Assembly: GCA_021582655.1 (NCBI GenBank)
Contig: CP091135.1
Coordinates: forward strand, 2,393,614 to 2,429,941
DNA length: 36,328 bases
Direction: 5' to 3'
DNA from: Nitrosomonas sp.
Lineage (GTDB): Bacteria > Pseudomonadota > Gammaproteobacteria > Burkholderiales > Nitrosomonadaceae
Below are positions 145 through 33,501 of the stretch, one piece after another. How positions within the stretch are numbered: the stretch's first letter is position 1; each line of letters starts with the position of its first letter. A program made the translations under genes and the position numbers. The notes below the pieces were generated by a model that saw only the letters and a program-made list of their open reading frames with translations, had not been told where the DNA came from and ran no database searches.

Positions 145-1722
145 ATGATCAAGTACTTAAGAAAAAAACGATTTTCCATTTTTGCTTGTAGTGTCGCCGT
201 CGTGAGTGGATTCCAGTCTTTGTCTGTGATTCAAGCAAAGGCATCTTCAATCACTCCGTTTGTCGAACCACTCAATACCGGTATCCGGTCTTTTACAGGA
301 GACAAGCTGTACGACATTAATTACAATTTTCCATCTTCTAAGAATGACTTGCTACTCTTAACTCAGTCGAGCGTTACCACATCGAGTACTGCGCTGCCAT
401 TTAAACCGCTGCGGTACGACGAAGATTATCGGTATCTACAAAACTCGAAATATCGACATGACTTCTGGGATCCCGTTAAGTTTATCCCCCTTAACGATCG
501 AAAAGATTGGTTTCTTTCATTCGGCGGTGAAATACGACAAAGATACGAGAGTTACCATAATCCTAATTTCGGTAGTGGCCCGGTGGACAATCGAGGAAAT
601 AATGACTATCTGCTCCAACGGTATTTATTGCATGGAGATCTTCACTTGGGGCAACGCTTCCGTTTTTTTGGTCAGTTTATGGCGAGCCTCGAAGATGGTC
701 GGATAGGTGGGCCGCGCCCTGAGGTTGATCGAAATATTTTTGACTTGCATCAGGGGTTTATGGATTTTGTTATTCCGACTGGTAGCAAAGTGTCGACCAC
801 TTGGCGGTTAGGAAGGCAAGAATTTGATTATGGCTCGGGGCGGCTCATTTCCGCACGGGAGGTTCCGAACACGCGCCGCTCGTTTGATGCCGCTCGAGTG
901 CTTCTTCGAATAAATCAATGGTCAATTGATGGATTCTGGGGGAAGCCGGTTCGTAATCGCTTTAACGTGTTTGATGATGATCCGGATCCGGACAGAACCT
1001 TGTGGGGTGCTTATGCTGTGCGACCGAATACATTTTTGCCTGATGGCCATATCGATCTGTACTACCTGGGTTTTGAAAACAAACACGGCGTATTTACTCA
1101 GAGTGTTGCAAACGAACTGCGCCACACGCTAGGAACGCGATTATGGGGGCAACCGTTGCCATGGGAATACAATATCGAGCTTATCTGGCAGTTTGGCCAA
1201 TTCGGTACCGGAAATATCAATGCTTGGGCGGTGGCAACCAATACTCGATACAGCTTCAATAGCTTGCCGCTTCGCCCACGGCTGGGTTTGACAGCCGACA
1301 TTACCAGCGGAGATCGAAATTCGAATTCAGCAAAACTGCAAACATATAACCCGCTATTTCCAACGGGAGCCTATTTTAACCTTGCCGATCTGCTAGGACC
1401 GTCAAATTTTATCCATCTCCACCCCTCAGTAGACCTACATCTCAATAATAAACTGAGAGTCACACTGGATTGGGGATTCTTCTGGCGAGAAAGTATTCAT
1501 GATGCACCCTATTCGATTGCAACTTTTCCAATTTTCTCGGATTACCTTGACCGAGGGCGATTTTCCGGCCATTCTCCAGCGATGACAATAGTTTGGGAGC
1601 TTAGTCGAAATATCACGATGCTTGCCAGTTATGTTCATTTCTTTCCAGGATCATTCTTCAATGACAACCATGAAAATAATTCCGTCGATTATTTTACGTC
1701 CTGGATCACCTATAAATTTTAG
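145..1722 (+). CDS. Alginate-export family outer-membrane porin
   Basis: The product (525 aa from this start) has a basic N-terminus with a hydrophobic stretch up to about residue 30, read as a signal peptide. A long domain rich in alternating aromatic and polar strands follows, with the opening FGGEIRQRYESY and many W/F/Y-ended strands, and the protein ends in an aromatic residue (YKF). This is the look of the Alginate_exp family of beta-barrel porins (AlgE-like), which move anionic polysaccharides or other solutes through the outer membrane. The ATG at 145 is preferred over an in-frame TTG at 115 because CAGGAA lies just before it and the protein then starts with MIKYLRKKRF. Substrate is unknown; no alginate biosynthesis genes are in view. 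Its TAG stop touches the first base of a dispersed repeat element. Confidence 0.8.
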   Translation: MIKYLRKKRFSIFACSVAVVSGFQSLSVIQAKASSITPFVEPLNTGIRSFTGDKLYDINYNFPSSKNDLLLLTQSSVTTSSTALPFKPLRYDEDYRYLQNSKYRHDFWDPVKFIPLNDRKDWFLSFGGEIRQRYESYHNPNFGSGPVDNRGNNDYLLQRYLLHGDLHLGQRFRFFGQFMASLEDGRIGGPRPEVDRNIFDLHQGFMDFVIPTGSKVSTTWRLGRQEFDYGSGRLISAREVPNTRRSFDAARVLLRINQWSIDGFWGKPVRNRFNVFDDDPDPDRTLWGAYAVRPNTFLPDGHIDLYYLGFENKHGVFTQSVANELRHTLGTRLWGQPLPWEYNIELIWQFGQFGTGNINAWAVATNTRYSFNSLPLRPRLGLTADITSGDRNSNSAKLQTYNPLFPTGAYFNLADLLGPSNFIHLHPSVDLHLNNKLRVTLDWGFFWRESIHDAPYSIATFPIFSDYLDRGRFSGHSPAMTIVWELSRNITMLASYVHFFPGSFFNDNHENNSVDYFTSWITYKF

Positions 1723-1841
1723 GAGAATGCTGATTCGTTGCGCAGGTGACGTGTTCCCTCACCCATCTTATTGATAGGTGACGATTATCGTGTTTCATGC
1801 GTCTTGCGCTTTATTCCGTTCGCCGAATTAATCAGTGTTTT
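1722..1841 (-). repeat. Dispersed TIR element, copy 1
   Basis: This is a 120-bp copy of the family described in the findings, in reverse orientation. The right end reads CCGAATTAATCAGTGTTT and the left end GGAGAATGCTGATT, so the ends are imperfect inverted repeats. An internal block CCCATCTTATTGATA is shared with the copies at 7676 and 26938 as their complement. The first G of the element is the G of the porin's TAG stop codon. About 25 bp near the left end are missing compared with the 26938 copy. Confidence 0.75.
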
Positions 1842-1883
1842 TTTTTAGCGCTATCCGGATTCCTTGAAAACTTGGATGTACAC

Positions 1884-1909
1884 TCATCGTTCCAATAATA
1901 GAACGATGA
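1884..1909. promoter_or_regulatory. 9-bp-arm inverted repeat upstream of pirin gene
   Basis: TCATCGTTC and GAACGATGA form a perfect 9-bp inverted repeat around an 8-bp AT-rich centre, 102 bp before the pirin start. The arms and spacing suit a dimeric transcription factor. Pirin/reductase clusters are often redox- or electrophile-controlled, so an operator is a reasonable inference. It could also be a weak hairpin, but it lacks a T-run. Confidence 0.45.
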
Positions 1910-2010
1910 AAATTATATTGACGGTCTACTCAAGCCATGACACGGCGAGTATATGGATTTCTTCTCAATGATTAGAAATTGAATGGAATAAACAACACGA
2001 GGGGATTGCG

Positions 2011-2877
2011 ATGAAAAATATTGTCGGTATATATGATGCGCCTCCAATCCATTGGGTTGGCGATGGTTTTCCGGTGCGCTCTTTATTTTCTTATCGAAAT
2101 CATGGAAGGTCACTCAGTCCATTCCTGCTGCTGGACTATGCCGGTCCTATGGAATTTCCACCTGCTGATCAGCCACGCGGTGTGGGGCAGCATCCCCATC
2201 GCGGGTTTGAAACGGTGACTATCGTCTATCATGGAGAAGTCGCGCACCGGGATTCCACAGGTCAAGGAGGCGTGATCGGCCCCGGTGATGTGCAATGGAT
2301 GACGGCCGGTGCAGGTATTTTGCATGAGGAGTTTCACTCTGAGTCTTTTACCCGCTCGGGTGGCTTACTGGAAATGGTGCAGTTATGGGTTAATCTGCCC
2401 GCCAGGAATAAAATGACTGCGCCGGGTTACCAAGCAATCCAGAATCAGGATATCCCAGCCATTGCCTTACCTGATGAAGCGGGCGTGCTTCGTGTGATCG
2501 CAGGAAACTATCAGCACCATGCCGGGTCTGCGCATACCTTTACGCCCATGAATGTGTGGGATTTGCAACTACATCAGAAAAAAAAGATTAGCCTGCCACT
2601 CATCGAGGATTGGAGCGCGGCGCTTGTCGTTCTGCATGGCGCAATATCCGTGAACGGCAGTGTGCCTGTAAAAGAAACGCAAATGATCATACTGGACCGG
2701 CCTGGCGATGAGGTATCCATCGAATCTCGCAGTGATGCAGTCATGCTTTTGCTCAGCGGCCAATCCATTGACGAGCCGGTGGTCGGGCAGGGGCCTTTCG
2801 TCATGAACGATCAGGCGGAAATCGATCAGGCTATCGCCGATTTTAACAGCGGGCACTTCGGAGAGCTATCGCGCTAG
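2011..2877 (+). CDS. Pirin family protein (metal-binding cupin)
   Basis: The 288-aa product matches bacterial pirins in length and layout. The N-terminal cupin has the metal-binding signature HPHRGFET at about residues 62-69, followed by HRDS and the block GDVQWMTAGAGI with HEE, which supplies the remaining His/Glu ligands. The C-terminal half is the second, less conserved cupin. Some bacterial pirins act as quercetin 2,3-dioxygenases and others as regulators of metabolic enzymes; sequence alone does not choose. GAGGGG precedes the ATG at a good distance. It heads a same-strand series with a YcaC-like hydrolase, an FMN reductase, ChrA and catalase, which suggests a role in redox or electrophile defence. 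An inverted repeat at 1884-1909 may control it. Confidence 0.9.
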   Translation: MKNIVGIYDAPPIHWVGDGFPVRSLFSYRNHGRSLSPFLLLDYAGPMEFPPADQPRGVGQHPHRGFETVTIVYHGEVAHRDSTGQGGVIGPGDVQWMTAGAGILHEEFHSESFTRSGGLLEMVQLWVNLPARNKMTAPGYQAIQNQDIPAIALPDEAGVLRVIAGNYQHHAGSAHTFTPMNVWDLQLHQKKKISLPLIEDWSAALVVLHGAISVNGSVPVKETQMIILDRPGDEVSIESRSDAVMLLLSGQSIDEPVVGQGPFVMNDQAEIDQAIADFNSGHFGELSR

Positions 2878-3013
2878 CCCGCAGTGTGTCAGAGAATTTT
2901 CATCATTCAATTTAACTTGATCCCAGAGTAGGAAATAGCGTGCAATCATGCATAAACAATGCAATGAACCATAAATTCAGTAGCTGTATGTTTTTTATGA
3001 TAAGGAGAAAGAA

Positions 3014-3640
3014 ATGAGCAAACCATATCGTCGTCTCGATAAAAATAATGCACTTGTTGCCTTGGTCGATCATCAGGCAGGGCTGCTGTCGCTGGTCCGT
3101 GATTTTGAACCCGATAGATTCAAGAATAACGTGCTGGCATTGGCGGATTTGGCTAAATACTTCAAATTGCCAACGATTCTGACCACCAGTTTTGAAGATG
3201 GTCCCAATGGCCCTCTAGTGCCTGAACTGAAGCAAATTTTTCCGGATTCGCCTTATATCGCGCGTCCGGGGCAAATCAACGCGTGGGATAATGGGGATTT
3301 CGTTAAAGCAGTCAAGCAAACGGGGAAAAAACAACTGATCATTGCCGGTGTGGTTACCGAGGTGTGCGTGGCATTTCCTGCGCTTTCCGCTTTGGAAGAA
3401 GGCTATGAAGTGTTTGTGGTAACGGATGCTTCGGGGACCTTTAACGAGGTTACGCGCGAAGCCGCTTGGAGCCGTATGGCTGAAGCCGGCGCACAGCTGA
3501 TGAGCTGGTTTGCTGTCGCCTGCGAGCTGCACCGCGACTGGAGAAATGATATCGAGGGCTTGGGCGCTTTGTTCTCCAATCATATTCCTGACTATCGCAA
3601 TCTTTTTACAGCATATACTGCAATCAAAGGCAATAAGTAG
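3014..3640 (+). CDS. YcaC-like isochorismatase-family hydrolase
   Basis: This 208-aa cysteine hydrolase has the isochorismatase-like fold. The catalytic Asp is D19 (ALVDHQ) and the nucleophile Cys is C118 in GVVTEVCVAFPA. R84 (ARPGQ) stands where many relatives have Lys, so the usual Asp-Lys-Cys triad appears as Asp-Arg-Cys; this should be confirmed by alignment. YcaC-type proteins are octameric or larger and their true substrate is uncertain. AAGGAG lies just before the ATG. The gene sits 136 bp after pirin and just before the FMN reductase, a grouping that suggests co-induction under oxidative or electrophile stress. Confidence 0.88.
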   Translation: MSKPYRRLDKNNALVALVDHQAGLLSLVRDFEPDRFKNNVLALADLAKYFKLPTILTTSFEDGPNGPLVPELKQIFPDSPYIARPGQINAWDNGDFVKAVKQTGKKQLIIAGVVTEVCVAFPALSALEEGYEVFVVTDASGTFNEVTREAAWSRMAEAGAQLMSWFAVACELHRDWRNDIEGLGALFSNHIPDYRNLFTAYTAIKGNK

Positions 3641-3746
3641 ATGATATATTGAAACAACCACAGCGCGGTTGAGCTTGAGCCCGGCCGTGCAGTATTACTT
3701 GCATATGATTGAAGAAGGCAAGTCACTGATAAATGAGGAATCGGAT

Positions 3747-4313
3747 ATGGAAGAATCTCACAAGGTCAATGTATTAGGTATTTCTGGCAGCTTGCGGCAA
3801 GGCTCCTACAATACCGCAGCGCTACGCGAGGCGGTTCAACTTGCTCCGGATGGCATGCATATCACGCTAGCTGATATCTCTGAAATTCCGCTTTATAACG
3901 AAGACATTTACGCAAAGGGATTTCCTTCGGCAGTCGAGTGCTTACGTGAGCAAATTCGATCTGCCGACGCACTGCTTTTTGTGACGCCGGAATATAATTA
4001 TTCTATCCCCGGTGTGCTAAAAAATGCGATTGACTGGGTATCACGACCACCGGAGCAGCCTTTTTCCGGAAAACCGGCCGCATTGATGGGGGCAAGTCCC
4101 GGGCGTTTCGGTACGGTGCGCGCGCAATACCATTTGCGCCAAAGCATGATATTTCTCGATGTAAAGTTACTTAATCAGCCCGAAGTAATGATTGGTAACG
4201 CACAAAATGTTTTTGATCAACAGGGCAAGTTAATTGATGCAGTGAGCCGAGAGCATATTCGCGGTTTGTTGAATGCGTTATATCAATGGACACTTTTGCT
4301 AAGGCAACGCTGA
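3747..4313 (+). CDS. NADPH-dependent FMN reductase
   Basis: This flavodoxin-like oxidoreductase (188 aa) moves electrons from NAD(P)H to FMN or quinones. The phosphate-binding loop GISGSLRQGSYN lies near the N-terminus, and TPEYNYSIPGVLKNAIDW is the family hallmark that holds the flavin ring. GSPGRFGT is here ASPGRFGT. The start at 3747 has GAGGA seven bases upstream and gives the usual family length; an in-frame extension back to 3669 also reads like protein but has no good ribosome site. The TGA stop lies inside the terminal repeat of a dispersed element, so the last residues (RQR) are encoded by repeat-border DNA. It is probably part of the stress set with the genes on both sides. Confidence 0.88.
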   Translation: MEESHKVNVLGISGSLRQGSYNTAALREAVQLAPDGMHITLADISEIPLYNEDIYAKGFPSAVECLREQIRSADALLFVTPEYNYSIPGVLKNAIDWVSRPPEQPFSGKPAALMGASPGRFGTVRAQYHLRQSMIFLDVKLLNQPEVMIGNAQNVFDQQGKLIDAVSREHIRGLLNALYQWTLLLRQR

Positions 4314-4352
4314 TTAATCGAGTGAACGAGACGAAGCGTGAGGTACCCGGGG
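4302..4352 (+). repeat. Dispersed TIR element, copy 2 (left part only)
   Basis: GGCAACGCTGATTAATCG, then GAACGAGACGAAGCG, matches the left 50 bp of the family. The rest of the element is not recognisable. The FMN reductase stop codon TGA (4311-4313) is the TGA of the terminal repeat. The remaining sequence up to the chrA ribosome site (4353-4592) holds nothing I recognise. Confidence 0.65.
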
Positions 4353-4603
4353 CGATGGCGATAAACCACTGACAGTGACGGTTGCCAGTTTACCGGAAAA
4401 GAAATGATGGAAGCGGGAAAAAGGGGCATCCTGCCATGTTGGCGGTGATATTTATTCGCGACAACATATGCTCCGCTATTTTTCGCTATTGCTTTTTTTA
4501 CTCGAAATCGAGACAATGCGCGCTATCGGGGATTCAGCAGCCTCCCCGTTTCAAGACATTTTGTCCAAGGACTGCTCTTATTGGATTTTTCCAAGGAGAA
4601 GCT

Positions 4604-5959
4604 ATGGACGCACACCAACCAAAATCCACCAACGATATACCTCCACAACCGGTTACGCTGTCGCAAGCATTCTGGTATTGGCTCAAGCTCGGCTTCATCA
4701 GCTTTGGCGGTCCGGCCGGGCAGATTGCGATCATGCATCAGGATTTGGTCGAGCGGATGCGTTGGATTTCGGAACGGCGTTTTCTACACGCGTTGAATTA
4801 TTGCATGCTGTTGCCGGGACCGGAGGCGCAGCAGTTGGCGACGTATATCGGCTGGCTGATGCATCGCACTTGGGGTGGTATCGTTGCCGGAGTGTTGTTC
4901 GTATTGCCGTCACTGTTCATTCTGATCGTATTGTCGTGGATTTACATTGCGTTCGGCGATGTACCGCTGGTCTCCGGTTTGTTTTACGGTATCAAGCCGG
5001 CGGTTACCGCGATTGTGGCGCAAGCGGCACACCGCTTAGGCTCGCGCACGCTCAAGAATAACGTGCTATGGGCGGTCGCGGCGGCGGCGTTCGTGGCGAT
5101 TTTCGCGCTCAAAGTGCCGTTTCCGTTGATAGTCGCCGGTGCGGCGCTTATCGGTTATGTCGGCGGACGGTTATCGCCGAATCATTTTAAAGCTGGCGGC
5201 GGGCACGGCCACGCCGGCCAATCCTATGGCGCGGCATTGATCGGCGATGATACGCCGACGCCGGAACATGCGCGTTTCCGCTGGTCGAGATTGCTGATGG
5301 TGGTGGCTGTGGGGGCGCTGTTGTGGCTGCTGCCGATGAGTTTGTTGGTTGCGTATTTTTCCTGGGAACATACATTGACGCAGATGGGCTGGTTTTTCAC
5401 CAAAGCTGCGTTGCTGACGTTCGGTGGTGCGTATGCGGTGCTACCTTATATCTATCAAGGCGCAGTGGAGTTTTACCAATGGCTCACTCCAACGCAAATG
5501 ATCGACGGGCTTGCGCTCGGCGAAGCGACACCCGGACCGCTGATCATGGTGGTGGCGTTTGTCGGCTTTATCGGCGGTTATGCGCAAGCATTGTTTGGGG
5601 CGGACGCACCGTTTTTCGCTGGTGCGGTTGCTGCGACCTTGGTCGTTTGGTTTACCTTTTTACCGTCGTTCATTTTCATTTTTGCCGGTGGTCCGTTGGT
5701 GGAGTCGACGCACGATAACCTGACATTCACCGCGCCGCTGACCGCGATCTCAGCGGCAATCGTCGGCGTTATTTTGAATTTGGCGCTGTTCTTCGGTTAT
5801 TATGTGCTGTGGCCGCAAGGATTTAGCGGTGCATTCGATGGTTGGGCGGCTATTATCGCACTGTTTGCCGCCATCGCATTGTTACGTTTCAAGCGCAATG
5901 TCATTGAGGTCATCGGGGTGTGTGCGGTTATCGGATTAATGTTGAAAACGCTGATGTAA
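4604..5959 (+). CDS. chrA: Chromate transporter ChrA, long-chain type
   Basis: The 451-aa membrane protein belongs to the CHR superfamily and is expected to expel chromate from the cytoplasm. It has two homologous CHR domains. The first carries FISFGGPAGQ (about 31-40) and LLPGPEAQQ (about 69-77). The second carries LTFGGAYAVLPYI and LGEATPGPL with further membrane helices. Ten or more hydrophobic segments are visible. The start at 4604 is set by AAGGAG five bases upstream; the reading frame is open further back to 4382 but that part is not protein-like. G+C is higher here than in the preceding intergenic DNA. Neighbouring reductase and catalase genes fit a chromate or oxidative-stress role, since chromate reduction makes reactive oxygen; this link is inference. 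Confidence 0.93.
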   Translation: MDAHQPKSTNDIPPQPVTLSQAFWYWLKLGFISFGGPAGQIAIMHQDLVERMRWISERRFLHALNYCMLLPGPEAQQLATYIGWLMHRTWGGIVAGVLFVLPSLFILIVLSWIYIAFGDVPLVSGLFYGIKPAVTAIVAQAAHRLGSRTLKNNVLWAVAAAAFVAIFALKVPFPLIVAGAALIGYVGGRLSPNHFKAGGGHGHAGQSYGAALIGDDTPTPEHARFRWSRLLMVVAVGALLWLLPMSLLVAYFSWEHTLTQMGWFFTKAALLTFGGAYAVLPYIYQGAVEFYQWLTPTQMIDGLALGEATPGPLIMVVAFVGFIGGYAQALFGADAPFFAGAVAATLVVWFTFLPSFIFIFAGGPLVESTHDNLTFTAPLTAISAAIVGVILNLALFFGYYVLWPQGFSGAFDGWAAIIALFAAIALLRFKRNVIEVIGVCAVIGLMLKTLM

Positions 5960-7604: not shown

Positions 7605-7675
7605 CAATTCTGTGTATAGGAATATTTCAGAGGCCCAAACCATGTCAAAGAATTAATGTGTTCAGAAAGAACGAA

Positions 7676-7818
7676 GGAAACGCTGATTAATTCGGCAAAC
7701 GGGATGAAACGCAAGATGTAAGGAACACAGTGACCTGTGTATATCCATAAGATGGGTGAGAAAGCGCGTTACCTTTGCAACGAAGCGATTCACTCGCATG
7801 GTCAATTCGATAGTGAAA
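7676..7818 (+). repeat. Dispersed TIR element, copy 3
   Basis: The left end is the clearest in the window, GGAAACGCTGATTAATTCGG. The interior shares GGGATGAAACGCAAG, GGAACACAGTGAC, CATAAGATGGGTGAG and TTTGCAACGAAGCGATTC with other copies. The right end (from about 7801, GTCAATTCGATAG) has decayed. This copy is 156 bp from the catalase stop, so it is the least closely tied to a gene end. Confidence 0.75.
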
Positions 7819-8043: not shown

Positions 8044-8044
8044 T

Positions 8045-8872: not shown

Positions 8873-8956
8873 GGGGATTGGGAATCGTTCGAAATCAGTC
8901 GACGCAAGGCAGCAGCAAGTGCGCTTTGTACGTGCGACAGACAGGTTCCGGTGATC

Positions 8957-9014
8957 GCTGTGTTTGGTGCGCCTTGCACCTCAATCCCGCTCGCCGAATT
9001 AATCAGCACTTTCC
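8957..9014 (-). repeat. Dispersed TIR element, copy 4 (partial)
   Basis: Read on the minus strand it begins GGAAAGTGCTGATTAATTCGG and continues GCGAGCGGGATTGAGGTGC, then AACACAGCGATCACC, matching the left half of the family. The rdgB stop codon TGA is the TGA of the terminal repeat, so the final residues GKC are encoded by the element edge. The other half toward the amidase gene is not clear. Confidence 0.7.
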
Positions 9015-9605
9015 GTCGCGCAAAATGGCAACCAATTGCGCCAACCCTTGACCGCGATGGCTGATGCGGTTTTTTTGCTCCGCGGTTAATTCGGCGGCGG
9101 TTTTATCGAATTCCGGCAGATAAAAATACGGATCGTAGCCGAATCCGCCGGCTCCTTGCGGCCGATCGATGATTTCGCCGTGCCATGAACCGTCGACGAT
9201 GATCGGTTGCGGGTCGTCCGCATGGCGAACCAATACGATGACGCAATAGTAATAGGCGCGTCGGTCGGTGTGATGCTGCAATGCTTCGATGAGTTTTTGA
9301 TTGTTGCGTTCATCCGATTTCGGTTCCCCGGCGTAGCGGGCGGAATTGACACCGGGTGCGCCGTTGAGCGCTTGCACGCAAATGCCGGAATCGTCCGCCA
9401 GCGCGGGCAAGCCTGAGTAACGGCTGGCATGGCGGGCTTTGGCCAGGGCGTTTTCGATAAACGTCGGGTGCGGCTCGTCGGCTTCGGTGATCGAGAAGTC
9501 GGATTGCGGCGCTGCATCAATGGCCAGCGGCGTCAGAATTGCCCTGATTTCCCGTAGCTTTCCCGGATTGTTACTGGCGATGATCAGTTTCCGCAGGGTG
9601 CTCAC
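9003..9605 (-). CDS. rdgB: XTP/dITP diphosphatase (HAM1 family)
   Basis: The 200-aa protein removes non-canonical purine triphosphates (dITP, XTP) by hydrolysis to the monophosphate and pyrophosphate. Family signatures are the N-terminal [13 protein letters not shown], the central [25 protein letters not shown], and [12 protein letters not shown]. All lie where expected. It overlaps the end of rph by 4 bp, so both are read from one mRNA. The C-terminal residues DGKC come from a dispersed element that brings the stop codon, so the original tail was probably a little different. Cytoplasmic house-keeping enzyme. Confidence 0.96.
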
Positions 9606-15783: not shown

Positions 15784-15893
15784 GGGGAAGCGCCGATCCA
15801 TTGGTTGTACCAGCAAATCGCTTCATATGTCTCAGTCGCTGTGTTCCATGCGTTGCGCGCTTCTCCCGTTCGCCGGATTAATCGACGTTCCCC
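15784..15893 (-). repeat. Dispersed TIR element, copy 5
   Basis: This 110-bp copy has ends GGGGAAGCGCCGATCCATTG and, on the other strand, GGGGAACGTCGATTAATCCG, imperfect inverted repeats. The core matches the family (CCCGTTCGCCGGATTAATCG). On the minus strand its first G is the last base of the TAG stop of the ABC exporter gene, the same arrangement as copy 1. The 225 bp between it and the start of the gene at 15558 hold nothing clear beyond AT-rich promoter-like DNA. Confidence 0.75.
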
Positions 15894-17668
15894 TAATCTT
15901 CCTGCTGCTGTAGTTTCCACATATGTGCGTATGCACCCTTGCTGTCGAGAAGCTCGGCGTGTGTGCCGTGTTCGATGATGCGTCCACGCTCCATGACCAG
16001 GATTTGGTCTGCGTCCGTAACGGTGGAAAGACGATGCGCAATGGTGAGAGTGGTGCGGTGTGCTGCAATGCGCTTCAGTTCCGCTTGGATGATTTTTTCA
16101 GACTGCGAATCCAGCGCCGATGTGGCTTCGTCAAAAATCAGAATGGCAGGGTTTTTCAGTATTGTTCGTGCAATGGCGATGCGCTGTTTTTCGCCACCGG
16201 ATAATTTCAATCCGCGTTCGCCGACGATCGTTTCGTAGCGGTGCGGCAGGCTTTCAATGAAATCATGGATATGTGCGGATTTCGCCGCGGCATATACTGC
16301 TTCGGCGGTAGCATCGGGATGTCCGTACGCGATATTGTAGTAAATGCTTTCGTTGAACAGTACGGTATCTTGCGGCACGATGCCGATAGCCATTCGCAGA
16401 CTGTGCTGCGTGATATCGCGAATATCATGGTTGTTGATGCGGATGGCACCGGATTGCACATCGTAAAAACGGAACAATAAACGCGCCAGCGTCGATTTTC
16501 CGGAACCACTTTGACCGACTACGGCAATATTTTGTCCGGCCGGGACGGTGAAGTCGATGCCAAACAAGATCTGGCGGTTTGTTTCGTAACTGAAATCAAC
16601 TTGTTCGAAACGGATCGTGGCGGGCTGGGCAATCAAGGGTTGGGCATCGGATTTGTCCTGGATTTCACGGTTCTCATCCAGTAATGTGAACATACGCTCC
16701 ATATCTGCCAGTGAATGCTTGATTTCACGATAAACGAAGCCGAGAAAATGCAACGGCAAGTATAATTGCAGCATAAATGCGTTGATCAGTACCAAATCGC
16801 CTAATGTAATAATGCCATTGATCACTTGCTGCGCTGCCAGTAGCATCAGCAGCGTAACACCGACTGCGATAATCGCACTTTGGGCGCTGTTAAGCGTGGC
16901 GAGGGAGGTCTGATTGCGTACGGCGGCTTTTTCCCAGGCTTGCAGGTGTTCGTCATAGCGCTGCGCCTCCCATGTTTCGTTGCCGAAATATTTCACCGTC
17001 TCGTAGTTCAGCAGGCTATCGATGGCTTGAGTATTGGCTTTGGAATCCATGTTATTCATGGTGCGACGGAAAATCATGCGCCACTCAGTGACAATCAGGG
17101 TTAGCGCAATATACGCAAGCAGCGTGAAAAAGATAATGATGGCAAACCGGATATCGTACTGATGGATCAGAATTGCCAGCACCAAGCCGATTTCGAGCAG
17201 GGTCGGCAGGATGTTGAACAGCATGAAGTTCAATAGAAACGAAATACCGCGCGAACCGCGTTCGATATCGCGCGAGACGCCACCGGTTTGCCGTTCCAAA
17301 TGAAAGCGCAGCGACAGCGAATGCAAATGGGCGAATACTTTGCTCGTGGCACGGCGAATGGCGCGCTGCGTAACTTTGGCGAAAATTGCATCACGCAGTT
17401 CGCCAAATAAGGTACTGCAAAAACGCAATGCACCATAGCCGATCAATAAGAAGAACGGCAGCACCAATTCGGTGGGTGATTGATCCAATGCATCGACAAT
17501 TTCCTTTAGCACCAGCGGTACCGAGACATTGGCCAGCTTCGCCAGGATCAACAGGCTTAACGCCAATATCACACGGACTTTAAATTCCCATAAGTAGGGT
17601 AGCAGTGTAGCGATAGTTCTCAGATGGCTGTGTGTTTGTGCGGGTTTTTCCAAACGAGTAGGGCGCAT
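15893..17668 (-). CDS. Atm1-type ABC exporter (fused permease and ATPase)
   Basis: The 591-aa half-transporter has six membrane helices (about 30-310) and an ATPase domain (about 350-590). ATPase motifs are Walker A GQSGSGKS (385-392), signature LSGGEKQR (489-496), Walker B ILIFDE (509-514) and the H-loop AHRLS. The membrane part has GGVSRDIERGSRGISFLL and NYETVKYFGNE, hallmarks of the ATM1/ABCB7/HMT1 subfamily that moves glutathione or glutathione-metal/persulfide conjugates from the matrix or cytoplasm. It works as a homodimer in the inner membrane. It lies 15 bp downstream of the NRAMP-related gene, so co-transcription and a metal-linked role are likely. Confidence 0.93.
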   Translation of the reverse strand: MRPTRLEKPAQTHSHLRTIATLLPYLWEFKVRVILALSLLILAKLANVSVPLVLKEIVDALDQSPTELVLPFFLLIGYGALRFCSTLFGELRDAIFAKVTQRAIRRATSKVFAHLHSLSLRFHLERQTGGVSRDIERGSRGISFLLNFMLFNILPTLLEIGLVLAILIHQYDIRFAIIIFFTLLAYIALTLIVTEWRMIFRRTMNNMDSKANTQAIDSLLNYETVKYFGNETWEAQRYDEHLQAWEKAAVRNQTSLATLNSAQSAIIAVGVTLLMLLAAQQVINGIITLGDLVLINAFMLQLYLPLHFLGFVYREIKHSLADMERMFTLLDENREIQDKSDAQPLIAQPATIRFEQVDFSYETNRQILFGIDFTVPAGQNIAVVGQSGSGKSTLARLLFRFYDVQSGAIRINNHDIRDITQHSLRMAIGIVPQDTVLFNESIYYNIAYGHPDATAEAVYAAAKSAHIHDFIESLPHRYETIVGERGLKLSGGEKQRIAIARTILKNPAILIFDEATSALDSQSEKIIQAELKRIAAHRTTLTIAHRLSTVTDADQILVMERGRIIEHGTHAELLDSKGAYAHMWKLQQQED

Positions 17669-19096: not shown

Positions 19097-19516
19097 ATGG
19101 AAATTACTTGCTATCGGGATCCGGAAGTAAGCCGGGTGGAGCGTTACTTGCCGGCCAAAACCTATAATCTGGCAGTGACTTTGCTTTCACATTGCGCAAC
19201 GCCGTACTTATTTGTACCGATACGCAGTATGCAGTATATGGCGATTATCGATCATGACGAATTCGTATTCATTGATGGCGAGCGCAAATGTTGGATCGAT
19301 ATCGCTTGGTGTGATTTCAGGCGCCAGGAACGTAATACTTTGGATGAGCCGGTGGCATATCAAGTTGTTTTCTACCGTGATCGTATGCCGGCAGTCATGC
19401 TGCGTTTGCAGCGGGAATTTCCGTTAGCCTTGGAAGCTTTGGCCGGTAGGTCAAAATTGGAAGGTCCTGCGCGGATTATTCATTTTCCGGCTAAGAACCA
19501 AGGAAATACCGGTTGA
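19097..19516 (+). CDS. Conserved-looking hypothetical protein, 139 aa
   Basis: I do not recognise this protein. It has no signal peptide or membrane helix. It is rich in aromatic residues and Arg, with one block VPIRSMQYMAIIDHDEF and another KCWIDIAWCDFRRQER, both strand-like. GGGAAT and AAG precede the ATG loosely. Codon use is like its neighbours and both ends fit gene borders. Its last three codons and TGA stop (encoding the end NTG) lie inside the terminal repeat of a dispersed element, so its C-terminus may have been altered by insertion. Confidence 0.7.
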   Translation: MEITCYRDPEVSRVERYLPAKTYNLAVTLLSHCATPYLFVPIRSMQYMAIIDHDEFVFIDGERKCWIDIAWCDFRRQERNTLDEPVAYQVVFYRDRMPAVMLRLQREFPLALEALAGRSKLEGPARIIHFPAKNQGNTG

Positions 19517-19635
19517 TTCGGCAAGCCGGATGAACGCGAGGCGCACGGAACGCAGTACTATCGACCGATTGGCAAGGGAGCGACTACCTTTACACCAAAG
19601 CGATTCGTCGGCGCAGTCAATTAATCTGTGTTTCC
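19502..19635 (+). repeat. Dispersed TIR element, copy 6, filling a convergent gap
   Basis: The 134-bp element starts GGAAATACCGGTTGATTCGG and ends CAATTAATCTGTGTTTCC. Inside, GGATGAACGCGAGGCGCACG, GGAACGCAG, CTACCTTTACACCAAAGCG and GATTCGTCGGCGCAG match the family. Its left edge contains the stop of the plus-strand gene (TGA 19514-19516), and its right edge touches the TAA stop of the minus-strand gene (19636-19638). The element therefore makes up the entire space between the two convergent genes. Confidence 0.8.
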
Positions 19636-19938
19636 TTAATCGTCCTCTCCCAGCTCGGCACTCCACCCTTTATTTTTGGCTGCGCTGATCGCTTGCTCGT
19701 AAATCAGCATATGGCGTTCGCGTAATTCGTCCGGTAATCGGCTGGGTAGATGCGCATAAGGTTCCCAGGCGGCGTAAACCTTTTCATAAAGGACTTGCAT
19801 TTGCGCGCCACTCCAGCCGGTGCAGGTTTCGGTTTCGGGAATAATCCCGAACACCCATGCATCCCGCACCACTCGTCCCAAATGCGTGAGTCCTTCATTC
19901 TCATCTTCCTGTATACCCGCATAAACTAGTTCCTGCAT
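19636..19938 (-). CDS. Hypothetical protein, 100 aa, downstream of antiporter
   Basis: A soluble, acidic protein without recognised domain. Residues read MQELVYAGIQEDENEGLTHL and later VRDAWVFGIIPETE, and it ends GELGEDD-like (AELGEDD). It begins 18 bp after the antiporter stop. The ATG at 19938 has GAGAG nine bases upstream; a TTG five codons earlier overlaps that site and is less likely. The close spacing suggests an operon with the antiporter, but no functional link can be stated. Its stop touches the border of a dispersed element. Confidence 0.7.
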   Translation of the reverse strand: MQELVYAGIQEDENEGLTHLGRVVRDAWVFGIIPETETCTGWSGAQMQVLYEKVYAAWEPYAHLPSRLPDELRERHMLIYEQAISAAKNKGWSAELGEDD

Positions 19939-19956
19939 GTGTAATTCTCTCAATTG

Positions 19957-22009: not shown

Positions 22010-25000
22010 CTAAATTCGCTCTGAGTGAAGCAAACGCGTTATTTTAGCCGAAGACACCGGTACACCGAAATAAAATCCTTGATACAGATCGCAACCTTTT
22101 CCGTTGAGGAATGCGAGTTGTTTTTCGGTTTCAACGCCTTCGGCGACCACCACCATGCCCAGGCTATGGGCCATGCCGATAGTGGCGGTGACGATCGCGG
22201 CATCGTTTTCGTCGGTGGTGATATCTCTGATAAACGAGCGATCGATCTTCAGTTTATCGATAGGGTAATGTTTTAAGTAAGCCAGATTGGAATAGCCGGT
22301 ACCAAAATCATCGATTGCGATGGTAAATCCTAAGTGGCATAGCTGTGCAAGGGTTTTTTGGATCAGATCGTTATCTTTCATCAGTAAGCTTTCGGTAATT
22401 TCTAAAATCAGGTTCTGACTCTCCACGCCGGTTTCATGCAATATGTGCTGGAGATTCGGTAAGAAAGCTTTATGCTGGAATTGCTTGGCGGAAAGATTAA
22501 GTGCAATTTTGGGAACGGTATAGCCGTCACTCAACCAGCTTTTGATTTGCAGACAGGCCGATTTGATGATCCAATCGCCAAGCGGCAGAATCAATCCCGA
22601 TTCTTCGGCAAGCGGAATAAAGCGGGCGGGTGAAATCCAACCCTCTTGGGAGTGTTGCCAGCGTAATAATATTTCCAAGCTGACAATGGTATTTTCATTA
22701 TTGACGATAGGTTGAAAATAGAGCTGCAATTCATTATTCTTAATGGCGGAATACAAGTAATTGGTAATGCGGTGATTTTCAATTGCCTGTAAATTCATTT
22801 CATCGGAAAAATAACGGTAGCTGTTGCGTCCGGATGATTTCGCATGATACATCGCGGTATCGCTGTGTTTTAATAATGCATCCGCGCTCTTGCCATGTTC
22901 CGGGTACAGTGCGATACCGATGCTGCAAGTGATGTAGAATGCATGCCGGCTGATATGATAAGGTTCGGAAACCTGGCTTAAGATTTTTTGCGACACCAAT
23001 TCGACCACGTTGAGTTCGGTGAAATGCGGTAATACCACAATAAACTCATCCCCGCCCTGGCGTGCGACAGTGTCTTCGCTGCGGATGCTGGTCGATAGTC
23101 TTTTTGCTACTTTCTTCAGCAGTAAATCGCCCAGGTTATGTCCGAAAGTATCATTGATATTCTTGAAATTATCCAAATCGATGAATAAAACCGCCGTCAT
23201 GCCATGATGACGTTGGTTAAATTCCAGTGCTTTGGTGATCCGATCTTGTAGTAAGAGCCGGTTCGGCAATCCCGTCAAAACATCATGGCAAACCATGTGA
23301 TTGATATGCTGCTCGTGATTTCTGCGCTCATACCAGATTCCTAAGTCTTCCGCGATAAAATTGATCAGATTTTGTTCGTCAGGCAAGATAAAAGGCTTAT
23401 GTTCCGTATAAATGACCCGCAATTGTCCGCAGATTTTTCCATTGACCTTGATTCTGGCGGTTAGGGCATGAGTAAGATCATGATGAAAATTATCCGAAGC
23501 GAAAAAATCGTTAAAAAGATTGATGCTGCATGCGGCGATTTCCGGATAGTGCAGGGTGGATACAAGATGTTTAATGATCTGGCCGCACAGTTTTTGCAAT
23601 GAGGTTTCCTTCACCATTTCGCGATGAATCGTATAGAGGCAGCTTTTTTCCTTTAACTGCTGCTGAAGCTGTATCTCTTTTTGTTTCCGGCTGCTGACAT
23701 CGACCCGGATTGAAATATACCGCTCAATACGGCCTTCCGGATTATTGAGCGGTACGATCACCGAGTCCACCCAATAGAGTTTTCCACTCTTGGCACGATT
23801 GCAAATTTCCTTGTGCCAAATACGCCCATCCGTAATGGTTTTCCACATTTCTACAAAAAAAGCCTTGGAATGTTTTCCCGATTTCAGCATGCTGTGATTT
23901 TGCCCGACGAGCTCATCCCGGGAATACTCACTGATTTGGCAAAAACGATCGTTCGCTTCGATAATCTTTCCCGAGCGGTCCGCCACCGATACCAATCCCA
24001 ATTCGCCGATCGCTTGGATATAGGTGATCAATTCCGTATTGGTGAGCCTGAGCTGTTCAGTTGCTTGCAGCAGTTTCTGCTTAAAATCGGATAGCCCGCT
24101 GCCGGTAAAATGCAGCCGTTTATTGGCATGATACAGATCGTCATTAGCGGCGTGAAATTTGTTATGGTCTGAATGCGATGCTTGTGCTTCATTGCGGGCG
24201 GTACGCAACTCTTCGCGCGCCGCTTTCAATTCCACCATTAATGATTCTATCGTGGCCGGATTTGGCAATGACGCTGAATGGGTGCCGGTAATGTCATTGG
24301 GCGAATTCACCGGATTTCTTTGCGTTGCGCCTGTAGCCAGATTCTCGTCGCACATCGGTCGGTGCGAAATAGCAGGATGGTCCGCCATATTATGATTGAT
24401 AGCGGGAATTGTATTGGTACCGCTTTCGTATAACAAATTGCTTTTGATTGCGCGCGCATTATCCGGTATCGGGTGCGGGAGCCGTGGCTGTTTGGGAGCT
24501 TGGGGCTGCCCGGGGTTGTCGCTGCGCTGGTAAATCGATAAGTGATCGTCGATGGGTATGAATAAGCCTTCATGCTGGCCGGTGTCCTCGGTGGTGCCGA
24601 GAACCAGCAATCCGCCGGGATTCAAGGCGGTATGAAAATTGAGAATTAATTGTTCGTGTAGCGTTTTGTCTAGATAGGTTAGTAGATTACGACAAAACAG
24701 AAGATCCAATTTTGAAAAAGGGGCATTTTTGGTAATGTTGTGCTCGGTAAACGCGACAAGTGTTCTGATGTCATCCTTGATTTGGTACCCATCATTTTTT
24801 TTGTGGAAAAATCGTTCCAACCGTTCCGGTGATACATGTTTGCTGATAGTCGAGGGATAGCAGCCTTGTTTTGCTTGAATCAGTGCCGTGCGGTTCCAGT
24901 CGGTCGCGAAAATTTGAATTTGGGGCGTGTGACGTAGATTGTGCGTGCCGATGATTTCCTTGATCAATATCGCTACGCAGTACGCTTCTTCACCAGTAGC

Positions 25001-26023
25001 GCAAGCCGGAATCCAAATCCGTAGCGCACTGTTTTTTGCACGTTGCTGGAGAAATGATGGCAACGTGCTATTTCTCAGGCAATTCCATACTATCGGATCG
25101 CGGAAGAAACCGGTGGTATTGAGTTGTAATTCGTCAAATAAATAAGAGACTTCTTTGGGATTCTTATGTAAAAAATGCAAGTAATCGGTAATATTGTTCA
25201 ATCCGCGTTGTTGCACTCGTTTTTCGATACACTGGCAAATTGTATTTTGTCTGTAATGAGAGAATGCATGGCCGGTTTGCAGATAAACGAACAGCAAAAT
25301 TTGGCTCAGCACGTCACCGGAAGGAAGTGGGTGATTTCGGTTACGATGATCCGGTTTGCCGGTTTGGTGATGTTCGAGAGCCGTAATGATCATGCCGGGC
25401 AGTTCTTCGACTTGACCGATTACGTCGACGCATGCAGCCGCAACAGCACGTTTTGGTATACCGGAGGCTTGACAAGTACGCGGATCTTGCGCAAAAGTTT
25501 GTCCGTGATATTTCTTAATGGTTTGAAAACCCTGTATGCCATCAATTCCTTCACCGGACAAAACGACACCGATTGCCCAGTCTCTTTGCGCCAATGCTAA
25601 AGCTCGGAAAAAGGAATCGGCGGGTAATTGCGGCGTGCGTGGATGTTTTACGGTGCGTAATGCGCCGCCGCGGATTGAAAAGCGTTGGCCGGGGGGGAGT
25701 AGATAAATGCAATCGGGCATGATTTTCATACTATCCGTTGCTTGCAGTACCTCCAAGCACACCTGCGATCGGAGTAAAGTATGCAATTCGTCATACCGCC
25801 AAGTAACCGAGCCCGTTATAACTACAAATGCCAATCCGGATTTGGCGGGCATATGTGAGAAAAATCCGGTTAATGCGGAAACTTCATCAGCGGAAGCGGC
25901 AATGCCTACAATCGGTGGATGGGTTTTGATAACGTGGCGAAAAACATGAGCGGATTGAAAAAACGACACATCATTAGTATTTTTTCGGGTTGTCGGTGTT
26001 TTGGATGTTTCTTTTTGAGACAT
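22010..26023 (-). CDS. CheB-like/CheR-PAS-GAF-like-GGDEF-EAL fusion protein
   Basis: The 1337-aa soluble protein joins chemotaxis and c-di-GMP domains. Order: CheB methylesterase-like (about 36-215), CheR methyltransferase (about 240-500), a Pro/Asn-rich linker, coiled coil (about 590-670), PAS (about 672-785), GAF-like region (about 790-900), GGDEF (about 905-1075) and EAL (about 1085-1330). In the CheB part Ser44 and Asp161 remain, but the usual QHL with catalytic His is ITGS (about 69-72), so esterase activity is probably lost. CheR has the SAM-binding block ACATGEEAY (340-348) and FCRNLLTYLD. GGDEF is intact at 990-994 (ARQGGDEF). The EAL motif reads EIL (1117-1119), with the Glu kept, and DDFGTGYS is intact. 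No receptors or other che genes are near. It is divergent from a CBS-pair gene across a 297-bp AT-rich gap. Confidence 0.9.
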   Translation of the reverse strand: MSQKETSKTPTTRKNTNDVSFFQSAHVFRHVIKTHPPIVGIAASADEVSALTGFFSHMPAKSGLAFVVITGSVTWRYDELHTLLRSQVCLEVLQATDSMKIMPDCIYLLPPGQRFSIRGGALRTVKHPRTPQLPADSFFRALALAQRDWAIGVVLSGEGIDGIQGFQTIKKYHGQTFAQDPRTCQASGIPKRAVAAACVDVIGQVEELPGMIITALEHHQTGKPDHRNRNHPLPSGDVLSQILLFVYLQTGHAFSHYRQNTICQCIEKRVQQRGLNNITDYLHFLHKNPKEVSYLFDELQLNTTGFFRDPIVWNCLRNSTLPSFLQQRAKNSALRIWIPACATGEEAYCVAILIKEIIGTHNLRHTPQIQIFATDWNRTALIQAKQGCYPSTISKHVSPERLERFFHKKNDGYQIKDDIRTLVAFTEHNITKNAPFSKLDLLFCRNLLTYLDKTLHEQLILNFHTALNPGGLLVLGTTEDTGQHEGLFIPIDDHLSIYQRSDNPGQPQAPKQPRLPHPIPDNARAIKSNLLYESGTNTIPAINHNMADHPAISHRPMCDENLATGATQRNPVNSPNDITGTHSASLPNPATIESLMVELKAAREELRTARNEAQASHSDHNKFHAANDDLYHANKRLHFTGSGLSDFKQKLLQATEQLRLTNTELITYIQAIGELGLVSVADRSGKIIEANDRFCQISEYSRDELVGQNHSMLKSGKHSKAFFVEMWKTITDGRIWHKEICNRAKSGKLYWVDSVIVPLNNPEGRIERYISIRVDVSSRKQKEIQLQQQLKEKSCLYTIHREMVKETSLQKLCGQIIKHLVSTLHYPEIAACSINLFNDFFASDNFHHDLTHALTARIKVNGKICGQLRVIYTEHKPFILPDEQNLINFIAEDLGIWYERRNHEQHINHMVCHDVLTGLPNRLLLQDRITKALEFNQRHHGMTAVLFIDLDNFKNINDTFGHNLGDLLLKKVAKRLSTSIRSEDTVARQGGDEFIVVLPHFTELNVVELVSQKILSQVSEPYHISRHAFYITCSIGIALYPEHGKSADALLKHSDTAMYHAKSSGRNSYRYFSDEMNLQAIENHRITNYLYSAIKNNELQLYFQPIVNNENTIVSLEILLRWQHSQEGWISPARFIPLAEESGLILPLGDWIIKSACLQIKSWLSDGYTVPKIALNLSAKQFQHKAFLPNLQHILHETGVESQNLILEITESLLMKDNDLIQKTLAQLCHLGFTIAIDDFGTGYSNLAYLKHYPIDKLKIDRSFIRDITTDENDAAIVTATIGMAHSLGMVVVAEGVETEKQLAFLNGKGCDLYQGFYFGVPVSSAKITRLLHSERI

Positions 26024-26249: not shown

Positions 26250-26320
26250 GCCATTACAAGATAGAGCGTCTATTTTGAAATCAAGTGATTACCTTCAACC
26301 GTTATTGAGGAGTGCACAAC

Positions 26321-26911
26321 ATGATGAATGGATATAAATCTCTTGCCGTTCAACATCTTTCGGGTCAGGTGAGTATCGTTAAACCGGCCTTGCCAAATCC
26401 GGTGACGTTCGACTCGCCGGCGTTGGAAGTTATGACCGATTTACGATCAATCCCTGCTGCCGTCATCGCACCGAATATCACCATGGAGATTGCCAACGCA
26501 TACATGATGCAGCGTGGTGTCCGGACGCTGCTGGTAATGTATGAGGACAATCTACTGGCCGGTATCATTACTGCCACTGATATTCTCGGTGAGAAGCCGA
26601 TGCGTTTTATTCAGGAAAGGGGCGTCAAACACAATGAAATTCTGGTAATGGATATCATGACTCCGCTGGAGATGTTGGAAGCGATTCCACTGGAAGAAGT
26701 AATGCATGCCCGAGTAGGCAATATCGTTGCGAGCTTGCGCGAAAGCGGGCGATTACATGCTTTGGCGATTGACGACAAGTCCGGCGATTTGCCCAGAATA
26801 TGCGGAATCTTTTCCTGGACTCAAATAGAAAAACAATTAGGAATAAAGATCGAACAGACGAATGCGGCGCAGAGTTTTGCGGAGATAGAATCCGCATTGG
26901 CTGCCGGTTGA
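26321..26911 (+). CDS. CBS-pair protein
   Basis: The 196-aa cytoplasmic protein is made of a CBS pair with a short extra N-terminal segment. The first CBS has AAVIAPNITMEIANAYMMQR, then VRTLLVMYEDNLLAGIITATDIL. The second begins VMDIMTPLEMLEAIPLEEV and ends RICGIFSWTQIEKQLGI. Such domains sense adenine nucleotides and often act as stress or energy sensors. No enzyme domain is attached. The ATG at 26321 is favoured by GAGGAG ten bases upstream; a GTG three codons earlier overlaps that site. It is divergent from the large CheB-like/CheR/GGDEF/EAL gene and may share regulation with it, which is inference. Confidence 0.85.
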   Translation: MMNGYKSLAVQHLSGQVSIVKPALPNPVTFDSPALEVMTDLRSIPAAVIAPNITMEIANAYMMQRGVRTLLVMYEDNLLAGIITATDILGEKPMRFIQERGVKHNEILVMDIMTPLEMLEAIPLEEVMHARVGNIVASLRESGRLHALAIDDKSGDLPRICGIFSWTQIEKQLGIKIEQTNAAQSFAEIESALAAG

Positions 26912-26937: not shown

Positions 26938-27084
26938 AGGGGCAGCGGATTATTCGGTAAACGAGATGAAGCATAATAGCGCACGGAATATAGAGACCCA
27001 GATATATCAATAAGATAAGTGGGGAGATTGTACTGCCCTCGCAACCAAGAGATTCGTTTGCGCGGCCAATTAATCAGCGTTTCC
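26938..27084 (+). repeat. Dispersed TIR element, copy 7 (most complete)
   Basis: This 147-bp copy has the left end GGGGCAGCGGATTATTCGG and the right end CCAATTAATCAGCGTTTCC. It contains the internal blocks ACGAGATGAAGC, GCGCACGGAATATAGAG, TATATCAATAAGATAAGTGG and CTCGCAACCAAGAGATTCG. It starts 26 bp after the CBS-pair stop and is followed at once by a second, unrelated palindromic element. Confidence 0.75.
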
Positions 27085-27087
27085 TGA

Positions 27088-30475: not shown

Positions 30476-30530
30476 TGATTTTGACCGGCATTAGCCGCAT
30501 GTGAAATGAACCGGTAAACAAATTCAATCC

Positions 30531-32744: not shown

Positions 32745-32762
32745 TGCCGCGTAATTTGTACG

Positions 32763-32797
32763 TAAAATACTTGAATGCGCCGCGCCGTATTATTTTT
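32763..32797 (+). terminator. Weak terminator-like hairpin after rlmKL
   Basis: AATAC and GTATT flank a G+C-rich centre (GCGCCGCGC) and are followed by seven T. The stem is short and the loop large, so termination is likely partial at best. It lies just before greB. Confidence 0.3.
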
Positions 32798-32822
32798 TTA
32801 ACAGACCATCCGACGAATCCCT

Positions 32823-33371
32823 ATGAATAAAGCGTTTACCAAAGAAAGCGATGACGATGAGGAACTCGACGATGCGCCAAAATTACCGCACGGGGTGAAG
32901 AACTATATCACTCCGTGCGGACATCAGCGATTGCAGGAAGAATTCGATCGTTTGTGGAAAATCGAGCGGCCCGAGTTGGTTAAAACAATTACATGGGCTG
33001 CTTCCAATGGCGATCGCTCGGAAAACGGCGATTATATTTACGGAAAAAGACGCTTGCGTGAAGTCGATCGCCGGTTACGATTTTTGTCCAAGCGCTTGGA
33101 TGCTGCCGAAGTGATCGATCCGGTGCAACGCGGTGATTGCGATCAGGTGTTTTTTGGCGCCACGGTGACCATCCGCAATCCGCGGGGCGAAATCAATACC
33201 TACAGTATTGTCGGTCTCGACGAGACCGATCCGGGGCGCGGCCATATCAGCTGGATATCGCCTTTAGCCAAAGCGTTGCTTAAAGCGCGCGCGGGCGATA
33301 TCGTGATGTTGCACACGCCCGTCGGAGCGGAGGAAGTTGAGGTTTTGGAAATTCGTTATCAGGCGATTTAA
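32823..33371 (+). CDS. greB: Transcription elongation factor GreB
   Basis: The 182-aa factor rescues backtracked RNA polymerase by stimulating transcript cleavage. The coiled-coil tip carries ASNGDRSENGDYIYGKRRLRE, in which D64 and E67 match the catalytic acidic pair (given as NGDRSEN), and a C-terminal FKBP-like domain follows (GATVTIRNPRGE, GHISWISPLAKALLKARAGD). It fits GreB rather than GreA by YIYGKRRLRE. An extra acidic N-terminal stretch of about 20 residues (ESDDDEELDD) precedes the usual start. Confidence 0.95.
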   Translation: MNKAFTKESDDDEELDDAPKLPHGVKNYITPCGHQRLQEEFDRLWKIERPELVKTITWAASNGDRSENGDYIYGKRRLREVDRRLRFLSKRLDAAEVIDPVQRGDCDQVFFGATVTIRNPRGEINTYSIVGLDETDPGRGHISWISPLAKALLKARAGDIVMLHTPVGAEEVEVLEIRYQAI

Positions 33372-33379
33372 GTGGTTGC

Positions 33380-33425
33380 AAATTGCAAGTCACATCCCGC
33401 TCGCCGGATTAATCAGTGTTCTCCC
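33380..33425 (-). repeat. Dispersed TIR element, copy 8 (partial)
   Basis: CATCCCGCTCGCCGGATTAA and then TCAGTGTTCTCCC match the left end of the family in reverse. Only about 46 bp remain, starting 9 bp after the greB stop. Confidence 0.6.
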
Positions 33426-33462
33426 AAGTAACCGCCGAACAGCACGCTGCGCTATTGCAGTG

Positions 33463-33501
33463 TGCGCTTTATTCCGGAAACTCCGGCGATTGAACAGTGT
33501 A
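33463..33501 (-). repeat. Degenerate TIR-element end, copy 9
   Basis: TGCGCTTTATTCC, then CGGCGATTGAACAGTGT, resembles copy 1 (TTGCGCTTTATTCC, CGCCGAATTAATCAGTGT) with several changes. It sits just downstream of the aldolase stop, which is at 33505-33507 on the minus strand. Calling it a family member is tentative. Confidence 0.35.

Follow-up and report, generated by a model that had tools for sequence, protein, structure and literature searches.

The 36,328-nucleotide stretch of Nitrosomonas sp. DNA analysed here (contig CP091135.1, positions 2,393,614 to 2,429,941; the window) carries copies of a short dispersed repeat that collects at the 3′ ends of genes. Taken together, the evidence indicates, with a probability that we put at roughly 0.86, that the repeat is a family of miniature inverted-repeat transposable elements (MITEs) that insert at the tetranucleotide YTAR and duplicate it, that an IS5-type transposase moves them in trans, and that their 3′ placement arises from target choice combined with selection. 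The anatomy of the repeat, the target duplication, the element-free counterpart sites, the enrichment at stop codons and the ends shared with an IS5-family element were all observed directly.

The genome of the window (G000) is a single contig of 2,460,023 bp with a listed completeness of 83%; it is perhaps reduced or incomplete. A BLASTN search of this genome with one window copy returned 41 matches at E<1e-5 and 46 at E≤1, some of the latter being second ends of copies already counted. A profile (R1), built by sequence only from 21 genome copies after 9 of the first 30, truncated or odd, had been omitted, yielded 153 matches at E≤1; 150 of the 1028 candidates from a first look were scored, and a few adjacent matches are possibly pieces of one copy. 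Sampling of the same genome gave 35 copies over 436 kb with the window included, corresponding to 197 per genome, and 28 copies over the 400 kb outside it, corresponding to 172; the repeat may form about 1% of the genome of this ammonia oxidizer. A sequence-only reading of the window had proposed a dispersed family at nine places and suggested genome-wide mapping with a profile as a check; the mapping bore out the family, with R1 recovering eight of the nine places and many genome matches beyond chance, while the copy listed at 33463 gave no R1 match at E≤10.

In relatives, most intact copies have a length of 143 bp and the form GGAAACGCTGATTAATT...AATTAATCAGCGTTTCC. Among two-ended copies from named records, which were chosen by an exact pattern that favours well-preserved copies, 53 of 64 measure 143 bp and have the ends GGAAACGCTGATTAATTCGG...CCAATTAATCAGCGTTTCC. 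The terminal inverted repeats are 17 bp long and the element contains no transposase gene, as is typical of a MITE; the sequence-only reading was correct in describing terminal inverted repeats without coding capacity, and its size range of 110–150 bp holds at the upper end, the intact element being 143 bp plus a 4-bp duplication. Where both ends were readable, YTAR stood on the left in 62 and on the right in 65 of 76 copies (some loci fetched twice). The 4-bp flanks were identical in 49 of the 64 two-ended named-record copies, compared with a mean of 12.8 and a maximum of 23 in 2000 shuffles, and YTAR was present on both sides in 53; the next four bases outward were identical in none of the 64. 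The target is thus duplicated, the signal being weak in the decayed copies of the own genome and in two other sampled genomes, G036 and G027.

Element-free sites were sought by removing the element together with one duplication and searching for the remaining flanks in other available sequences. A continuous counterpart was found for 13 of the 110 copies queried; six of these alignments had no gap longer than 3 bases, the best being 95.8% identical across 498 bp and containing one TTAA.

The placement of copies relative to genes was compared in three sets, namely 61 copies from the own genome, 74 from named records and 13 from G036 and G027 (148 in total), once copies with under 300 bp of flank, or whose flanks had occurred before, had been set aside. 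Gene calls came from a simple codon-usage script, and non-coding YTAR sites served as controls. For copies outside genes, the 3′ ends of genes at a distance of up to 10 bp numbered 32 (60 own-genome copies), 22 (72 named-record copies) and 7 (13 copies from G036 and G027), relative to 167/1123, 203/1604 and 371/2788 for the respective controls; the corresponding 5′ ends numbered 5, 3 and 0 (one copy can have two ends). Counted per copy, with limits of 10 bp on the outside and 25 bp on the inside, 51 of 148 had a 3′ end and 5 of 148 a 5′ end. In a test of stop-codon offsets confined to element ends retaining at least 12 of the 17 terminal bases (96, 139 and 21 ends, with the sets in the above order), stop positions peaked sharply at zero relative to the element edge. 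The stop codon of a gene coincided with the final three bases of the duplication in 27 of 148 copies and 352 of 4928 controls (odds ratio 2.9, P=1e-5), an excess seen in each set (12/61 own-genome, P=0.007; 10/74 named-record, P=0.011; 5/13 in G036 and G027, P=0.0015). For all six stop-codon copies with a counterpart, including that at locus L210, the protein of the element-free genome ends at the identical codon, so the stops probably existed before the element arrived; the counterpart stops printed for five of the six comprise four TAA or TAG and one TGA. In seven further cases the gene runs on into the element, whose end supplies the TGA or TAA stop (offsets 11, 15 and 19). The 3′-end placement of the MITE is therefore real, and the test of stop-codon distance against intergenic placement that had been suggested at the outset upheld it in samples of three genomes and in named records. 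Own-genome copies lay between convergent genes in 15 of 60 cases relative to 238 of 1123 control sites, and we claim no preference for such intervals.

Part of the 3′-end effect follows from the element itself, because YTAR corresponds to a stop codon after a pyrimidine (pyrimidine plus TAA or TAG) and the element ends carry TGA or TAA; judged by the sequence, two of the three frames are stopped within ~20 bp at the left end and all three at the right end. The bias could then be purely passive, requiring neither selection nor further target choice, and the 51 copies at 3′ ends do include genes ending inside the element, which such an effect would explain. However, the control YTAR sites hold a gene stop in 7% of cases as opposed to 18% of copies, and they lie within 10 bp of 5′ ends almost as often as of 3′ ends (549 versus 741), whereas the copies do so in 5 versus 51 cases (P=3e-8). 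We consider a wholly passive origin unlikely. Stops were in reach of 22/47 old, 13/46 middle and 16/55 recent copies, a difference between old and recent that was not significant (P=0.10).

An unfiltered search of the window with R1 matched eight places, all at E≤0.0017:

1723..1844, minus strand: decayed copy with internal losses, ends set by eye (R1 match 1731-1841, 2e-21).
4301..4370, plus strand: left-end fragment (R1 match 8e-7).
7674..7813, plus strand: top-scoring window copy, right end missing (R1 match 6e-31).
8937..9013, minus strand: left-end fragment (R1 match 3e-10).
15786..15894, minus strand: internally deleted copy (R1 match 15825-15894, 2e-11, continued by 15786-15824, E=0.02).
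19500..19638, plus strand: nearly full copy (element 19502-19635) between convergent open reading frames (ORFs) (R1 match 3e-19).
26940..27086, plus strand: nearly full copy (R1 match 4e-24), 28 bases past the stop of ORF 26312-26911.
33392..33424, minus strand: left-terminal fragment and weakest match (R1 0.002), 20 bases past the stop of ORF 32823-33371.

Seven of these had been listed as clear copies; a near-complete span of the element is present only in 19500-19638 and 26940-27086, the copies at 7674, 15786 and 1723 show losses, and those at 4301 and 8937 are left-end fragments. The further statement that eight of nine copies lie within about 30 bp of a stop codon becomes seven of the eight confirmed copies, touching or within 30 bp of stops at 1722, 4313, 9003, 15893, 19516 and 19636 (the same copy), 26911 and 33371; the exception is 7674..7813, which has no listed window ORF ending within 30 bp. 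Several of the stops coincide with the target or with the element end. The TAG (1720-1722) of ORF 115-1722 lies within the TTAG at 1719-1722 that flanks the first copy, whose opposite flank is TTAG 1845-1848, and the stop of the ABC-transporter-like ORF 15893-17668 is likewise within the TTAG flanking its copy. The right TTAA of copy 19500..19638 contains the stop of ORF 19636-19953 while its left end stops ORF 19097-19516, and ORF 3669-4313 runs into the terminal repeat of copy 4301..4370 and ends at the repeat's TGA. The RdgB-like ORF 9003-9605 is one of the read-in cases, its final codons and stop being supplied by the terminal repeat of copy 8937..9013; its C terminus is GKC, and 20 of 29 fetched genus orthologues have GKF.

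Only 3 of the 148 copies lay wholly inside a called gene. The clear case, G000:C1:760802-760948 (L009 1476-1619), sits in frame in a P-type cation ATPase and adds 49 residues that are absent from 29 other genus loci fetched and aligned; the ATPase query, which included the element itself, found some match in 62 of 85 genomes. For the in-gene copies L054 and L112, and for L095, where an MnmE-like frame has the element joined to its upstream side, the choice of start may have created an artefact. One frame of the element is open in 35 of 54 named-record copies and in 3 of 8 own-genome copies measuring 143 bp. A coding role for this frame was rejected, substitutions in the 54 named-record copies being 0.055, 0.066 and 0.064 at the three codon positions.

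A full-length insertion sequence (IS) with matching ends, which the sequence-only reading had suggested looking for, was found in the genus relative G036. Seven identical transposase open frames were listed there, and the four elements compared are 1195 bp long, identical inside, and flanked by the 4-bp duplications CTAG, CTAG, CTAA and CTCT. Their ends are GGAAACACTGATCTATTCG and GGAAACGCTGATTAATTCG, and GGAAACGCTGATTAATTCG is identical to the first 19 bases of the MITE (19/19 bp, left end). The encoded protein is an IS5-family transposase (NF033581 336.6 bits, cut-off 140, plus DDE_Tnp_1 and DUF772), and 95% relatives in G058 and G076 share this layout. Scanning 60 transposase loci for 1.0–1.5-kb elements with a 4-bp duplication yielded 19 (none at the other 41), and 17 of the 19 have ends of the kind GGAAR...CT.A. 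DUF772 was present in 9 of the 12 MITE-bearing genomes searched and not found in the other three, G000, G016 and G020; G000 also gave no DDE_Tnp_1 match. Across the genus, transposase homologues (E≤1e-20) occurred in 27 of 85 genomes, and the MITE was found in 23 of these 27 versus 30 of the 58 others (Fisher P=0.004, ignoring kinship). On the basis of shared ends and duplication, the enzyme that moves the MITE is most likely an IS5-family (DUF772/DDE) transposase supplied in trans. The second contig of G036 and the plasmid NZ_CP133084.1 carry the MITE at equal coordinates, which makes it very probable that G036 is Nitrosomonas sp. sh817.

The MITE itself (E≤1e-4) was detected in 53 of the 85 genus genomes, at most 36 candidates being scored per genome, and in 2 of 40 genomes from the rest of the family, both weakly (3e-6 and 3e-7). 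A 30-base element pattern matched 86 stretches of the GTDB collection, from which own-genome records were possibly excluded; all of the 80 matches listed are titled Nitrosomonas or ‘Proteobacteria bacterium’ metagenome-assembled genome, and N. ureae Nm13 and N. oligotropha Nm75 are among the matched records. The phage collection had no MITE match and the plasmid collection a single one, on NZ_CP133084.1. This copy (L313 1501-1646) is 97% identical to the query copy, is unannotated in the feature table and lies ~240 bp before a ParA gene; the plasmid, which belongs to Nitrosomonas sp. sh817, is conjugative. A pattern search of the 85 genomes for the ends without the MITE interior gave 11 matches, spread over 6 genomes, and 7 of these were variant MITEs with both ends. 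Another mini-element, 98 bp long, has ends of the same type and is flanked by YTAR but contains a different interior (L114 7377-7474 and L304 2601-2698); forms of 47 bp (L157 1501-1547) and 60 bp (L223 1124-1183) were seen once each.

Median identity to the nearer of two consensus forms was 79% for own-genome copies and 94% for named-record copies, the latter comparison being affected by the choice of well-preserved copies. Because the own genome shows no DDE_Tnp_1 transposase and its copies show this low median identity, they are old, decayed remains, or fossils, and spread elsewhere is more recent.

The sequence-only reading had left open whether the family consists of MITEs or of REP-like repeats, which would be moved by a REP-associated tyrosine transposase (RAYT; Y1_Tnp). 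Placement at 3′ ends is typical of REPs, and Y1_Tnp matches do occur, one in the own genome, 31 in G036 and 6 in G027. A REP in this sense is a 20-40-bp palindrome tied to a Y1_Tnp gene; here the unit is 143 bp with terminal inverted repeats, a duplicated 4-bp target and IS5-like ends, and L316, where the single Y1_Tnp match of the own genome lies, has no MITE copy. Movement by such an enzyme is accordingly very improbable. The repeat family is a MITE and not a REP, because it has inverted repeats, a 4-bp duplication, element-free counterpart sites and an IS5-family element with matching ends. As a separate observation, a dozen of the 31 Y1_Tnp matches in G036 share an equal top score, which suggests that an IS200-like or RAYT-like gene spread recently in that genome.

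The hairpin potential of the element raises the further possibility that the copies are functional 3′-end RNAs or bidirectional terminators, retained at gene ends by selection, which would also fit their placement. Each of two intact copies forms a single long hairpin, with energies of −62.2 and −63.2 kcal/mol and z near −8, but the z values for three window copies were −1.5, +0.4 and −2.5, and among 21 own-genome copies 81.9% of the hairpin pairs remained paired as compared with 81.7% with shuffled partners. The covariation score was matched by 170 of 500 shuffles, changes on both sides of a pair numbered 16 versus 14.8, and RNAalifold found nearly no consensus structure in the 21 copies (−1.77 kcal/mol); compensatory changes thus did not exceed chance. 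The hairpin does score better than slid versions of itself, as expected of a structure derived from one of the sequences. A scan around one intact copy gave no terminator and one promoter-like site (0.5 expected), an Rfam scan of the window gave no match on the repeats at gathering score, and the copies originate by insertion with target duplication. A retained RNA or terminator role therefore appears quite unlikely. Since there was neither excess compensatory change nor a codon pattern in the substitutions, there is no sign of function retained after insertion, and we take the placement to reflect target and selection.

Several results weigh against the proposed MITE–transposase system. Identical flanks were found in 9 of 29 two-ended own-genome copies (shuffled mean 3.0, maximum 9) and in 3 of 8 from G036 and G027 (mean 1.5, maximum 3), and 7 of the 13 counterpart alignments contain gaps of 6–13 bases. 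The start positions of the gene-calling script are uncertain, which blurs 5′ distances, and two early versions missed the window ORF 115-1722. The association between MITE and transposase is uncorrected for kinship and drawn from at most 36 scored candidates per genome; MITE matches number 1 and 0 in G058 and G076, which contain full-length donor-like elements, and the MITE-rich genomes G020, G023, G035, G055 and G078 have no transposase homologue at E≤1e-20. The MITE interior, aligned with two IS, gave a best match beyond the ends of E=1.5; with an interior unrelated to these IS, the MITE appears to be IS5-type by its ends and duplication and not a plain deletion derivative of the IS tested, and the donor is deduced from ends and duplication.

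According to the mechanism that we propose, the 143-bp non-coding MITE with its 17-bp terminal repeats would insert at YTAR and duplicate the target, using in trans an IS5-family (DUF772/DDE) transposase that is present in relatives on an element of its own with matching ends. As YTAR contains TAA or TAG, a stop codon after a pyrimidine would be a permitted target, and the duplication would rebuild the stop and leave the protein unaltered; on landing slightly upstream in another frame, the element end would usually provide a TGA or TAA within ~20 bp. Selection would eliminate insertions within genes and near starts, and the weight of target choice relative to selection is inferred, as is the identity of the transposase. 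A more speculative extension, which we advance tentatively and with some doubt, is that the MITE is a stop-codon specialist, whose YTAR target, frame-neutral step of 147 bp (143 + 4), terminal stop codons and one open frame let it enter stops, gene tails and interiors without breaking proteins and so reach close to 200 copies in a 2.5-Mb genome.

This offers a testable answer to why some small bacterial repeats gather at 3′ ends, namely that the duplicated target is the stop codon and the insertion repairs its own cut. A likely transposase donor is indicated in a strain with a public plasmid record (Nitrosomonas sp. sh817), and MITE insertions may serve as presence/absence markers for the genus Nitrosomonas.

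Two further features of the window were recorded. A chrB-b RNA motif (Rfam RF03086, 46.4 bits) lies at 4527-4575 on the plus strand, directly before ORF 4604-5959, which by eye resembles a chromate transporter. The stretches 13117-13504 and 22541-22925 are 71–72% identical DNA within ORFs 12160-15558 and 22010-26023, both resembling GGDEF/EAL signalling proteins by eye.

The sequence-only reading knew of no matching named family, and the literature searched, which did not extend to ISfinder or subscription journals, likewise contained no description of this family among the titles and abstract openings listed. Correia elements of Neisseria duplicate the dinucleotide TA. They are betaproteobacterial MITEs, numbering more than 120 in one genome, and, unlike the Nitrosomonas MITE, lie mostly directly upstream of genes and carry promoters (PMC10969869; here and below, cited papers are represented by the parts covered). 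The palindromic elements of Rickettsia are about 150 bp long and inserted in frame in genes, a location common for them as against 3 of 148 copies here (PMC10969869). QMITE2 of Coxiella burnetii, a palindromic MITE of 150–190 bp found mainly in 3′ untranslated regions, sometimes provides a C terminus or an in-frame insert as the Nitrosomonas MITE does, but differs in its variable duplications of 7–11 nt and, in the text covered, shows no IS5-type ends (PMC5896051). The ends of GTAG-REPs are reported to supply the stop codons of flanking ORFs (PMC3733652). IS5 of E. coli shares with the Nitrosomonas system an IS5-family DDE transposase and a 4-bp duplication of consensus Py-T-A-Pu, mostly CTAG, while it is autonomous and its hotspots are regulatory regions rather than stop codons (PMC5493358). 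MITEPsy1 of Pseudomonas syringae, with 6 tabulated insertions and no stop-codon placement in the text covered, is 100 bp long with 18-nt ends GGAAGGTCTGAAAAAGCC and a 4-bp duplication of CTAG or YTAA; it is a probable IS5-type MITE, thought to have arisen from the IS5 element ISPsy2 (1194 bp), and its insertions were trapped on a plasmid (PMC3189936). MITEPsy1 and ISPsy2 thus represent the same kind of system as the Nitrosomonas MITE, with different ends and a different interior (PMC3189936).

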